Origin: an uncultured Oscillospiraceae bacterium
GTDB taxonomy: Bacteria; Bacillota; Clostridia; Oscillospirales; Oscillospiraceae
Assembly: GCA_947625355.1 (NCBI GenBank)
Contig: CANQOA010000001.1
Coordinates: forward strand, 1 to 64,000
Reading direction: 5' to 3'
Length of the DNA stretch: 64,000 nt
The position numbers and the translations under genes were made by a program. The notes under the pieces were generated by a model, which worked only from the letters and a program-made list of their open reading frames with translations, was not told the DNA's origin and did not search any database. Below are positions 13,937 to 20,488 of the stretch, piece after piece (positions within the stretch are counted from its first letter, which is position 1; every line of letters begins with the position of its first letter).

Positions 13937-15337
13937 ATGCGTTTTTATAACGATCTGACCATGCAAAAGGAGGACTTCGTCCCCATCGAGGAGGGCAAGG
14001 TCCGCATGTACTGCTGCGGCCCCACGGTGTATAACCTCATCCACGTGGGCAACGCCCGGCCCATCATCATGTTCGACGTGCTGCGCCGTTACCTGGAATA
14101 CCGGGGCTATGAGGTGAACTTCGTCCAGAACTTCACCGATGTGGACGACAAGATCATCAAGCGGGCCAACGAGGAGGGCATCAGCGCCGCCCAGGTGGCG
14201 GAAAAATACATCGCCGAGTACTGGAAGGACGTGCAGGGCCTGGGCGTCCGAGCTGCCACCGTCCATCCCAAGGCCACGGAGAACATCCCCCAGATCATCG
14301 GGCTCGTCCAGACCCTCATGGACAAGGGCTACGCCTACGAGGCGAATGGGGACGTATATTACCGCACCGCCAAGTTCCGGGATTACGGCAAGCTCAGCCA
14401 CCAGAATCTGGACGATCTGATGCACGGGGCCCGCGTGGAGGTCAACGATGTCAAGGAGGACCCCATGGATTTCGCCCTGTGGAAGGCCGCCAAGCCCGGC
14501 GAGCCCGCCTGGGAGTCCCCCTGGGGCATGGGCCGCCCCGGCTGGCACATCGAGTGCTCGGCCATGTCCAACCGCTATCTGGGCAAGACCATCGACATCC
14601 ACACCGGCGGCAAGGACCTGATCTTCCCCCACCATGAGAACGAGATCGCCCAGTCCGAGGCCGCCAACGGCGTGCCCTTCGTCCACTACTGGCTGCATAA
14701 CGGCTTCATCAACGTGGACAACCAGAAGATGTCCAAATCCCTGGGCAACTTCTTCACCGTCCGGGACGCCGCCGCGGCCTATGGCTACGACTGCATCCGC
14801 ATGTTCATGCTCATGAGCCATTACCGCTCCCCGCTGAACTACTCCACCGACGTCCTGACCCAGACCCAGGCCGCCCTGGAGCGGCTCAAGACCGCCAAAG
14901 ACAACCTGGACTTCTTCGCGGAAAACGGCAGGGACGGGGACATGTCCCCGGAGGAAGCCGCTTTCGCCGCCGGGCTGAAAAAATACCGCCAGCGGTTCAT
15001 CGACGTCATGGACGACGACTTCAACACCGCCGACGCGGTGAGCGTGATCTTTGAGCTGGTCCGGGAGATCAACGCCGCCGTCTCCCCCGCCGCCGACCCG
15101 TCCAAGGCCCTGGCGGCCGCGTGCCGGGATCTGTTTCTGGAGCTGTGCGGCGTGCTGGGCATCCCCTTCGGCGCCGCCGAGAACCTGGACAGCGAGATCG
15201 AACAGAAGATCGCCGCCCGGCAGGCCGCCCGCAAGGCCAAGAATTGGGCCGAGGCCGACCGCATCCGGGACGAGCTGAAGGCCGCCGGCATCATCCTGGA
15301 GGATACCCCCCAGGGCGTAAAATGGCACCGGGCGTGA
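13937..15337 (+). CDS. cysS: Cysteinyl-tRNA synthetase
   Basis: A class I aminoacyl-tRNA synthetase of 466 residues that charges tRNA-Cys. It has the zinc-ligand start CCGPTVYNLIHVGN (HIGH motif as HVGN), DVDDKIIKRA, the GWHIECSAM zinc region and KMSKSLGN. Its C-terminal DALR-like helical domain is complete. It is the last gene of the plus-strand run and is followed by a strong hairpin. Confidence 0.97.
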   Translation: MRFYNDLTMQKEDFVPIEEGKVRMYCCGPTVYNLIHVGNARPIIMFDVLRRYLEYRGYEVNFVQNFTDVDDKIIKRANEEGISAAQVAEKYIAEYWKDVQGLGVRAATVHPKATENIPQIIGLVQTLMDKGYAYEANGDVYYRTAKFRDYGKLSHQNLDDLMHGARVEVNDVKEDPMDFALWKAAKPGEPAWESPWGMGRPGWHIECSAMSNRYLGKTIDIHTGGKDLIFPHHENEIAQSEAANGVPFVHYWLHNGFINVDNQKMSKSLGNFFTVRDAAAAYGYDCIRMFMLMSHYRSPLNYSTDVLTQTQAALERLKTAKDNLDFFAENGRDGDMSPEEAAFAAGLKKYRQRFIDVMDDDFNTADAVSVIFELVREINAAVSPAADPSKALAAACRDLFLELCGVLGIPFGAAENLDSEIEQKIAARQAARKAKNWAEADRIRDELKAAGIILEDTPQGVKWHRA

Positions 15338-15359
15338 CGCGCTCCCGACCACATCAGCT

Positions 15360-15385
15360 ATCCCCCGCCGATCTCGGCGGGGGAT
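15360..15385 (+). terminator. Terminator after cysS
   Basis: A perfect 12-bp stem (15360-15371 with 15374-15385) with a TC loop, followed by a weak T tract. Confidence 0.7.
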
Positions 15386-15420
15386 TTCCGCATCTTTCCC
15401 CATTTTTCGACGATATGGGG

Positions 15421-15449
15421 TTGACATCCCGGCAAAGGTGTGATAAATT
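15421..15449 (+). promoter_or_regulatory. Promoter of the pseudokinase gene
   Basis: Consensus TTGACA (15421-15426), 17-nt spacer, TAAATT (15444-15449); an AT-rich stretch leads to the ATG at 15501. Confidence 0.75.
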
Positions 15450-15500
15450 TGTTTTAAATCGTAACCAAATTGTAACTTTTTTCAGTTCGGCGGTGATTAC

Positions 15501-17774
15501 ATGTCTGATACAGAGATGGATCCGATGTCCTCCTTGGCGGGATACCTGCGGGAGTCCGGCCCGGAGCAGGCGGTAAAGCTGGCGCGGGAGCTGTGCGGGC
15601 AGCTGGAAGGCGAACCGGAGAGCTTCCACGGCGGCATATGGCCGGGGAACGTGACGCTGGATGTGGACGGCCGTGCCGTGCTCGGCAAGCCCTCCTCCGC
15701 GCCTGCCCGGAACCGGCCGGCCAGCCAGGTGGAGTATACCTCGCCGGAGTTTTTCTGGGACGGGGACCGCTCCGCCGCCGCGGACGTATACGCTGTGGCG
15801 CTGATGCTCTATGCCGGGTGCCAGGAGGGTTACCTGCCCTTCCAGCCCCACGTCCCCGACCTGGCGGCCAAGGACCGGGCGGAGGCGCTGCGCCGGCGGA
15901 TGAAGGGCCAGCGCGTGACCGCCCCGGACAACGTCAGCGAACAGCTGAAAAAGGTGCTGGAAAAGGCCCTCTCCTTTGATCCGGAGGGCCGGTATATCAC
16001 CGCGCGCGAGTTTCTCTCCGCCCTGAACACCGTCCCCGAGGCGGCCGAAGAGGCGGATATCGCCGCGCCCCTCGGGGCCATGGCCGCCGCCGCGGCAGCG
16101 GCCGCCGCGGAGATGGGCCTGGAGCCCGAGCCCGAGGAAGAAGCCCCCGCCCCGGAGCCGGAGGTGGACCCCGAAGAGCTCCTCCGGGCGGAGAAGGCCC
16201 GGGAGGCCGAGGATGCGGCCGCCGCAGCCCTGGCCGCCGCGGTCCTGGCGGACGAGAGGGCTCTCGCCGCGAGGAAGGCCGAGCTCGACGCCGCTCCCGA
16301 AGCCGACACCGCACCTGAGCCTGATGCTGCTCCCGAACCCGAGCCTGCGTCTGACGCCGCGCCAGAGCCAGAGGCGGTGCCCGAGACAGGATCCGCGCCC
16401 GACGCCGAAGCCGCGCCCGGACCGGACGCTGAGCCCGAGCCCGACGCGGCAGCCGCGCCCGATGCCGCTTCCGGGACGGAAGAGGGCGCGCCCGAGACAG
16501 GGCCCGAGGCCGACGTCCCGCCCGCACAGACGCCCCCGGAGCCGGTCATCGAGACGGCCTCCATGTCCACCGCCGACGGCGAAGCCGCCGCCAAGCGGGA
16601 TTATAAAGTACAAAAGAACTTCGAGCGGACCCGCGTGCCCCGCCCGGAGCCGGTCAAGCGCCGGCGCTCTCTTGCCGCGCCCATCCTGTGCGGGTTGGCG
16701 GCCGTGCTGATCATCGGCGGGGTGGGCTGGGTTCTGTTCAGCGGCGGCAGTCAGCCGGAGCTCTCCAGTCCCTTTTCCACCCAGGAGCCCCCTCCCCCGA
16801 CGGAGGAAGGCCCCTCGCCCACGCCGCTGAGGATCACCCCCGCGCCCACCAAGACCCCGGCGCCCACCAGGACGCCCGCCCCTACTCCCGACGCCACCCA
16901 GCCCTTGCCTACCCCCATCGTCCCTGTCGCGCCGCTGTACGGCGCTGACGGCGGAAACGGCGGCGGTACTGCCGCCAACCTTGGCGCCGGCGGCAGCGGC
17001 AGCAGCGGCGGCACTGGCGGCAGCCCCTCCGGCGGTAGCAGCGGCGGCGGTACTGGCGGCTATGCTCCTTCCGGCGGCGGTTCTTCCGGGACCGGCTCCT
17101 CCGGCGGCGGCAGCAGCTTCACCGTGTCCCCCGCCAGCGGCACGGTCTATCTCACCGGCGACCAGGTCCGGGTCCGTTCCGGCCCCGGCACCGGCTATCG
17201 CATCCTGGGCTCCCTGAACAAGGGCGATCCCATCGTCCGCACCGGCACCGTGGCCAACGGCTGGACCCAGGTGACCTATGGCGGCCAGACCGGTTACATC
17301 TACACGCAATATCTGACCGAGACCACGCCGGCCACCCCGGAGCCCACCCCCGGCATCCCCGTCACCCCCGAGCCGTCGCCTGTCCCCGCGCCGACCTACT
17401 CCGTCAGCAAGCAGGACGTGACCTATGCCGAGGCCAAGGAGGCCGCGGCGGCGGACGGCGGGCTGGCCATCGCCCCCGACGAGACGGCGTTCAACGCCCT
17501 GACGGACGCCCTGCGCGGCAATGGCGAAGGTCTGGAGTTTGCCTGGCTGGGCGCGGAATACGACGCCGTGAACGGCGCCTGGTACTGGTCCAACGGCTCG
17601 CTCCTGCCCCTCGGCGACCCCCACTGGGCCGATGGCTTCCCCGTTCAGGGCCACGACGTGGTGATGCTGTCCCTGATAGACGATGAATGGAAGTTCGTCT
17701 CTCTGTCCTCCGCCGACTTCGACCCGGCCTCCGACACCTATGCCGGAAAGCTGGGATACGTGACCGCCGGCTGA
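15501..17774 (+). CDS. Pseudokinase-SH3-lectin-like membrane protein
   Basis: A 757-residue mosaic. Residues 15-175 resemble only the C lobe of a Ser/Thr kinase: HGGIWPGNV stands where HRDIKPEN is expected (Asp to Gly45), the DFG is gone, yet VEYTSPEF, the AADVYAVAL aspartate and the EGRYITAREFL arginine remain. There is no P-loop or VAIK lysine. Next come an Ala/Pro/Glu-rich linker (180-385), a transmembrane helix (about 391-412), a Pro/Thr then Gly/Ser-rich stalk, a bacterial SH3 domain (about 548-605), and a C-terminal domain (632-745) like a cysteine-free C-type lectin fold (WLGAEYDAVNGAWYWSNGS). It is predicted to bind cell wall or glycan outside with a non-catalytic kinase remnant inside. 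It is monocistronic. Confidence 0.7.
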   Translation: MSDTEMDPMSSLAGYLRESGPEQAVKLARELCGQLEGEPESFHGGIWPGNVTLDVDGRAVLGKPSSAPARNRPASQVEYTSPEFFWDGDRSAAADVYAVALMLYAGCQEGYLPFQPHVPDLAAKDRAEALRRRMKGQRVTAPDNVSEQLKKVLEKALSFDPEGRYITAREFLSALNTVPEAAEEADIAAPLGAMAAAAAAAAAEMGLEPEPEEEAPAPEPEVDPEELLRAEKAREAEDAAAAALAAAVLADERALAARKAELDAAPEADTAPEPDAAPEPEPASDAAPEPEAVPETGSAPDAEAAPGPDAEPEPDAAAAPDAASGTEEGAPETGPEADVPPAQTPPEPVIETASMSTADGEAAAKRDYKVQKNFERTRVPRPEPVKRRRSLAAPILCGLAAVLIIGGVGWVLFSGGSQPELSSPFSTQEPPPPTEEGPSPTPLRITPAPTKTPAPTRTPAPTPDATQPLPTPIVPVAPLYGADGGNGGGTAANLGAGGSGSSGGTGGSPSGGSSGGGTGGYAPSGGGSSGTGSSGGGSSFTVSPASGTVYLTGDQVRVRSGPGTGYRILGSLNKGDPIVRTGTVANGWTQVTYGGQTGYIYTQYLTETTPATPEPTPGIPVTPEPSPVPAPTYSVSKQDVTYAEAKEAAAADGGLAIAPDETAFNALTDALRGNGEGLEFAWLGAEYDAVNGAWYWSNGSLLPLGDPHWADGFPVQGHDVVMLSLIDDEWKFVSLSSADFDPASDTYAGKLGYVTAG

Positions 17775-17788
17775 GACGAACAAAAAGG

Positions 17789-19651: not shown

Positions 19652-20488
19652 TCAGGCCCCCAAATAGAGCCGGATGATCTCCAGATATTCCTCGGGGTAG
19701 AAGCCGATCTCGCCCTGGAAGCGGGTCAGGGCGATGAGCCCGCCGTCGATTTCGTCGATGGAGGCCAGCATGGCGGCGTTGTCGGCCTTGAGGCCGCCGC
19801 CGTAGACCACGTCCATGCCGCCCGTGCGCTCCTTCACGAACCGGGCGATCTTCGTGATATAGGGCTTGTCGGCGGGCGTCTTGCCCGGGCCGATGGACCA
19901 CACCGGCTCATAGCCGATGACCACCTTGGACTTGTCCACGCCGGCCAGGCCCACGTCCAGCTGCCGGCCCAGCACGTTCTCCCAGTCGGCCTGCTCCTCG
20001 CTGGTCTCCCCGATGCAATAGAGGACCGTGAGGCCCGCGGCCTGGGCGCACCGGATCTCCTGGTTCAGGAGCCGGTCCACCGCGGCCGTGTCCGCGCTGC
20101 CGCCCTCGGCCAGGACGCCTTTTTTATCGCTGCGCTCCTCGCAGTGGCCGATGAGGGTGCTCTCGCAGCCCATGGCCTTCACGATGGAGGCCGGCCGGTT
20201 GCTGGTCAGCGCGCCGAAGTTGCCGCCGGGGGCGGTGTTGATCCGGTACACGCTCTGGCTGCCCAGCTTCACGGGGCTGCCCTGGCACCGGGCCGCCGCG
20301 GCGGAGAGCAGGTGGGCTTCCGGCAGGTACTGCACGAATTCCACCTCGGCCGGGTCGTATTTTTTCAGTCCCTCCTGGGTGTCGCTCACCACCGCCGCGC
20401 CCCAGTCCTTCACCGCCGCCAGCCGGTTCACGCCGCCCAACTCCACGGGCACGTCGAACCGCTTCAGATTCAGATAGATATGTTTCAT
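19652..20488 (-). CDS. tpiA: Divergent triosephosphate isomerase
   Basis: The 278-residue protein keeps the three catalytic residues: a lysine near the start (Lys9 in LNLKRF, where NWKMN is usual), His115 in LIGHCEER, and Glu194 in GYEPVWSIGPGKTP; the C-terminal VVYGGGLKADN is the phosphate site. It is about 25 residues longer than standard TpiA and diverges at the first strand, so it may be an operon-specific paralogue, possibly acting on a modified triose. It is the last gene of the nagB-nagA-fba-pfp-tpiA operon, 4 bp after pfp. The normal reaction is interconversion of dihydroxyacetone phosphate and glyceraldehyde 3-phosphate. Confidence 0.85.
   Translation of the reverse strand: MKHIYLNLKRFDVPVELGGVNRLAAVKDWGAAVVSDTQEGLKKYDPAEVEFVQYLPEAHLLSAAAARCQGSPVKLGSQSVYRINTAPGGNFGALTSNRPASIVKAMGCESTLIGHCEERSDKKGVLAEGGSADTAAVDRLLNQEIRCAQAAGLTVLYCIGETSEEQADWENVLGRQLDVGLAGVDKSKVVIGYEPVWSIGPGKTPADKPYITKIARFVKERTGGMDVVYGGGLKADNAAMLASIDEIDGGLIALTRFQGEIGFYPEEYLEIIRLYLGA

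Follow-up and report, generated by a model that had tools for sequence, protein, structure and literature searches.

The window, by which we mean the whole 64,000-nucleotide stretch of DNA analysed here from an uncultured Oscillospiraceae bacterium, encodes a protein of 757 amino acids at positions 15501–17774 of the forward strand in an uninterrupted reading frame. From the intact frame and its relatives, we describe the product as a half-kinase, receptor-like protein. The upstream gene cysS stops at position 15337, and the distance from this stop to the start of the half-kinase gene is 164 bases. This interval contains a terminator-like hairpin 3’ of cysS (15362–15383) and, just 5’ of the half-kinase gene, a sigma-70-type promoter-like site (TTGACA-17-TAAATT; 15421–15449, +), recognized by its match to the consensus; since the cysS stop, the hairpin and the promoter-like site occupy the upstream space, it is too small to hold the missing kinase N-lobe. 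We also considered an open reading frame of 809 codons on the opposite strand (15354–17783, −), and took it for a GC-rich shadow of the half-kinase gene. The neighbors tested in the window comprise prmC, recA, recX, rimO, cysE, cysS, a MATE transporter and glycolysis-type genes. Among the genes of the window, a triosephosphate isomerase-like frame (19652–20488, −), which scores well under the curated cut-offs, adjoins genes for a PPi-type phosphofructokinase and a class II aldolase.

The N-terminal part of the protein (residues ~10–180; 15528–16040, +), predicted to be cytoplasmic, is a pseudokinase C-lobe according to Pfam, an AF2 model and structural matches. The Pfam Pkinase match is confined to profile positions 154–257 of 263, and the N-lobe with its VAIK Lys is absent, the match beginning at profile position 154. 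A degenerate catalytic loop, HGGIWPGN (residues 43–50; 15627–15650, +), replaces HRDxKPxN and places Gly at the site of the HRD Asp, while KPS occupies the DFG position with Lys at the site of the DFG Asp. The APE-type motif is kept as SPEFFW (residues 81–86; 15741–15758, +), which includes the family-specific Trp86, and RRRMKG (residues 131–136; 15891–15908, +) lies at the end of helix αG, its Arg133 being invariant in related intact kinases too. The AF2 model of residues 1–185, for which 36 family members were aligned, reached a pLDDT of 91.8 and a pTM of 0.89. The top VIA-align matches of this model were PknB structures (Z 19.0, rmsd 3.4, 167 aligned), and the Foldseek matches listed for it were all kinase domains. 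Structure prediction confirms the kinase C-lobe fold of the window protein, and with it the proposal of the sequence-only reading that this is a pseudokinase consisting of the C-lobe only, devoid of the N-lobe, the HRD aspartate and DFG.

The C-lobe is followed by an Ala/Pro/Glu low-complexity linker that is probably disordered and carries a basic KRRR (residues 386–389) at its end (16041–16670, +), by a single membrane helix (residues ~391–413; 16671–16739, +), and by a stalk, Pro/Thr-rich and then Gly/Ser-rich, that is presumably extracellular (16752–17132, +); all three were read from the sequence. Because the basic KRRR precedes the membrane helix, an N-in topology is predicted.

Beyond the stalk, both Pfam and AF2 place an SH3b domain (residues ~547–605; 17133–17324, +), where the Pfam SH3_3 match covers residues 555–605 with an E-value of 1.9e-12 and 47.6 bits against a cut-off of 27. 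The C-terminus is formed by a C-type-lectin-like domain (residues 630–757; 17388–17771, +) that has lost the Ca2+-site residues and has no cysteine, as had been noticed for this protein from its sequence. The AF2 model of the SH3b and lectin-like part (pLDDT 93.0, pTM 0.62) aligned in its lectin-like domain with the C-type lectin TC14 (VIA Z 14.9, rmsd 2.2, 113 aligned), and Foldseek matched the ectodomain model to collectin-11 and the mannose receptor as well as to bacterial SH3 domains (9ovi). A phmmer search of the PDB with the window protein likewise finds C-type lectin domains, with a best E-value of 2.2e-5. Pfam reports no Lectin_C in the window protein, but does so in its relatives. The predicted order of membrane helix, SH3b and lectin-like domain therefore holds, with the helix read from sequence and the two domains identified by Pfam SH3_3 and by the AF2 model with its TC14 match. 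Structure prediction of both ends of the protein, set beforehand as a test, returned the kinase C-lobe and lectin-like folds; the outcome that would have refuted the reading, other folds, did not arise.

The finding is wider than first stated, as it concerns a family of half-kinase receptor-like proteins and not a single odd protein. At a threshold of at least 142 bits, the family profile matches 74 of 400 sampled genomes of the GTDB family; the next match below lies at 111.6 bits, where intact kinases start. By eye, the 74 genomes span 20 of the 106 sampled genera. Outside the GTDB family nothing scored above 112 bits, either in the order sample (394 genomes) or in the class sample (291 genomes). 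The N-terminal domain occurs in 33 of 35 genomes of the window’s genus, the window’s own genome counted; the matches listed for G003 and G012 are SH3 matches only. The proposed search for the same domain order showed that it recurs across the genus, and the order in the window protein is thus more than chance. The comparison that follows covers 94 proteins. Of these, 33 belong to the window’s genus; the other 61 come from further genera of its GTDB family and represent all but five of the 66 outside-genus genomes at 142 bits or more (G419, G201, G239, G291 and G289 were left out).

Across these 94 proteins the catalytic sites are degraded in a consistent way. The HRD-Asp site holds Asp in one protein and the catalytic-loop Lys site holds Lys in none; the DFG-Asp site holds Asp in five, and DFG itself occurs nowhere. 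The Mg-type Asn (N50) is retained in 87. Meanwhile, the APE Glu, the αF Asp, the αI Arg and Arg133 are each present in 94/94, and Trp86, also found in 94/94 family proteins, is found in 0/22 related intact kinases. In most members the C-lobe match begins close to the N-terminus. Longer N-terminal extensions were seen in 8 of 58 proteins, and in the six of these that were read the extra sequence is not an N-lobe but a low-complexity acidic stretch. From this pattern we infer that the half-kinase proteins would be unable to bind ATP or transfer phosphate.

The substitution rates point to purifying selection. Against the nearest relative, G029, the dN/dS values are 0.10 for the C-lobe, 0.27 for the linker, 0.46 for the helix and stalk, 0.54 for the SH3b domain and 0.67 for the lectin-like domain; against the more distant G001 they are 0.38, 0.38, 0.68, 0.74 and 0.87 in the same order. 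In neither comparison does any other part have a lower dN/dS than the C-lobe, which shares its value with the linker in the G001 pair and is set apart less there. Conservation gives no preference to a docking face: the kinase-consensus residue is kept at a rate of just 0.32 in the αG segment, no higher than in the αE segment.

The ectodomain varies between the window’s genus and the rest of the family. By our own profile, 85 of the 94 family proteins carry a lectin-like domain; the profile was built from proteins outside the genus, and counts made with it lean towards them. Pfam reports Lectin_C in 53 of the 58 outside-genus members scanned, and in L031, L032 and L034. Five of the nine misses lie at contig ends (L213, L215, L070, L078 and L079), and L240 likewise reaches a contig end. 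The other four (L039, L040, L045 and L046) are genus proteins with SH3b in which no lectin-like domain was found, three of them carrying three or four SH3b copies; the loss is unsure in L046 because of a run of unknown bases. Of the 33 genus proteins, 30 have SH3b and three are cut; none of the 61 from other genera has it. Among the 59 aligned lectin-like rows from outside the genus, Ca2+-site-like residues are conserved as N in 57, D in 58 and E in 58, and the Ser of EPS in 54, whereas the YND-type N and D are kept in 0 of 26 rows from the window’s genus. We take these EPS/YND residues to be equivalent to the EPN/WND-type Ca2+ ligands of C-type lectins. Cysteine is absent from the lectin-like domain in 4/59 rows outside the genus and 14/26 rows within it. 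Judged from these alignments, the Ca2+ site of the outside-genus domains looks intact, and the window protein lacks residues of the EPN/WND type; the gain of SH3b and the loss of the Ca2+ site are found only in the window’s genus. With SH3b added and its lectin-like domain altered, the window protein is a derived member of the family. The ancestral form likely comprised the C-lobe, the membrane helix and a lectin domain in which the Ca2+ site looks intact, since the lectin form is spread more widely.

In a tree of 77 C-lobes, 40 sampled pseudokinases (of the 94 family proteins) form one clade with an SH-aLRT of 99, and the PASTA kinases stand separately (9 rows, support 100). The pseudokinase clade adjoins a group of intact local Ser/Thr kinases, a group whose own support is 77. 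Descent from PASTA kinases was rejected on the position of the pseudokinases outside the PASTA clade, within the limits of a quick tree with long-branch warnings. Two of 48 related full-length kinases examined, L049 and L276 from the same bacterial family, also bear a C-terminal lectin-like domain. These local intact kinases resemble the half-kinase family in their C-lobe kinship and in joining a kinase to a C-terminal lectin-like domain, and differ from it in having a complete bilobal kinase, with a glycine loop, HRDIKPSN and DFG in L049. L049 (6409–8076, +) and L276, a frame of 1144 residues with its lectin-like part at 1006–1129, are candidates for the ancestral arrangement, and their existence makes it plausible that the ancestor was an intact kinase with a lectin-like ectodomain. 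In the window’s genome, PF00069 finds only a PASTA kinase (L085), an LRR kinase (L098) and the half-kinase protein, the first two lying on other contigs. Other kinase fusions were observed: a Ser/Thr kinase joined to a LytR-CpsA-Psr domain (L075:3403–5550, +), and RCC1-type repeats fused to Ser/Thr kinases at L043:338–3175 (+), L071:8372–11452 (+) and L074:6716–9868 (−), of which L074 has an additional SH3_3 and L071 a TctC domain.

No neighbor gene family is common across genera at the 94 loci, many of which are cut by contig ends. Within the window’s genus the commonest neighbor is cysS, upstream in 16 loci; in other genera an oxidoreductase-like gene (16 loci) and a metallo-beta-lactamase-like gene (14 loci), both named from their sequence starts, are the most frequent. 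An operon with a partner gene was rejected, as the commonest neighbors differ between the window’s genus and the other genera.

Several known systems resemble the half-kinase proteins in part. Like the PASTA kinases (PrkC/PknB/Stk1), the window protein is predicted to have a cytoplasmic kinase fold, one membrane helix and extracellular wall-facing modules, and the best solved-structure match of its C-lobe is PknB, itself a PASTA kinase. To this extent the described likeness to PASTA kinases stands; the idea that their architecture is turned inside out does not, as the predicted N-in topology equals theirs, and the C-lobe falls outside the PASTA clade. The window protein further differs from them in lacking the N-lobe, the catalytic residues and the PASTA repeats, for which there is no Pfam match in it, SH3_3 being found instead; a PASTA kinase is present separately in the window’s genome. 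The KIND domain (SPIRE, KNDC1, PTPN13), known from eukaryotic intracellular proteins, is a protein-interaction module. In the part of the KIND literature available to us, it is, like the half-kinase family, a C-lobe only and catalytically dead, and is the closest known half-kinase to the window protein. A curated KIND model gave no match in 36 members at E-values up to 10, with HMMER filters that drop weak matches, so the likeness would be one of principle and not of descent. Among firmicute membrane pseudokinases with a scaffold role, the closest described in the available part of a review is EssB/YukC of type VII secretion (PMC12599244). The same part lists the EssB pseudokinase with an ATP-binding motif region and a degraded glycine loop, from which EssB would have an N-lobe (PMC12599244); the half-kinase family differs in lacking the N-lobe and in carrying a lectin-like ectodomain, and no T7SS neighbor was seen among the window neighbors tested or the family loci compared. 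We set aside EntA/EntC/EntFM, MAD6 and PglW of NCBIfam, which gave weak matches far under their cut-offs in common SH3b or kinase parts. A search of the main text of the review cited above, which treats bacterial pseudokinase families and dates from 2025, turned up neither C-lobe nor lectin, SH3 or Oscillospir (PMC12599244). Our literature searches gave no description of the half-kinase family, in line with the sequence-only reading, which knew of no described protein with this domain order; its observation is confirmed and its interpretation is partly supported.

We consider it reasonably probable that the window protein, crossing the membrane once, works as a receptor-like pseudokinase whose cytoplasmic C-lobe is a module for docking or allostery, and the family as a whole probably relays outside signals without enzyme activity. 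The ligand of the outside domains would come from the envelope or the environment. For relatives outside the genus it would probably be a glycan, bound via the Ca2+ site; in the window’s genus it may be peptidoglycan or a protein, bound via SH3b and the lectin fold lacking the Ca2+ site. Ligand binding could cluster or position the receptor, and the C-lobe would then dock, most likely onto either an active Ser/Thr kinase or the substrate of a kinase, perhaps via its αEF/αG face. Such a mode of action would resemble that of the KIND domain or of the scaffolding pseudokinase EssB/YukC, but with half a kinase on a lectin-type receptor. According to the accessible part of one report, PknB-type kinases are able to dimerize front to front, one monomer acting as activator and the other as substrate (PMC7464533), making a kinase-docking role for the C-lobe conceivable. 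The broader proposal, that these proteins constitute a bacterial receptor class signaling via a half kinase, with the C-lobe coupling a lectin/SH3b sensor to active Ser/Thr kinases as an independently evolved counterpart of KIND, is a tentative one that we hold with more doubt than conviction.

Other explanations place the function elsewhere. The protein might mainly be an envelope anchor or adhesin whose function resides in SH3b and the lectin-like domain, with the C-lobe as a folded cytoplasmic anchor or localization tag that takes no part in signaling. The modular ectodomains, with SH3b gained in one genus and the lectin-like domain not found in four of its proteins, and the lack of a conserved neighbor or partner fit this idea; against it, constraint in the nearest pair is highest in the C-lobe, and an invariant family-specific Trp exceeds the needs of a passive plug, which leaves it unlikely in our view. 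Far less probable is a split or complemented kinase, whose catalysis or other transferase activity would be restored by an N-lobe from another protein or by unusual residues, as in SelO and SidJ. It could draw on the widely retained Mg-type Asn and on the pseudokinases with other activities that are treated in the available part of the review (PMC12599244), but the complete loss of the catalytic-loop Lys and of DFG opposes it. Moreover, the PF00069 search shows no free N-lobe in the window’s genome, which argues against a split kinase of this kind, with the proviso that a very divergent N-lobe could escape the search. The missing N-lobe and catalytic residues might also suggest a pseudogene in decay or an assembly error that left a fragment of an ordinary kinase gene, readings to which we give virtually no credence: the frame is intact and has its own promoter-like site, the N-terminal domain recurs in nearly all genomes of the genus and in 61 proteins of other genera, and the dN/dS values indicate purifying selection. 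A pseudogene or a wrong start is ruled out by the intact frame, the promoter-like site and the conserved form.

Bacterial pseudokinases are little studied. The invariant signature of the half-kinase receptor-like family, together with its presence in 20 genera of gut-type bacteria, lets one ask what a lone kinase C-lobe does, and the family gives candidates for the sensing of glycans or of their own wall by uncultured Oscillospiraceae-type bacteria.
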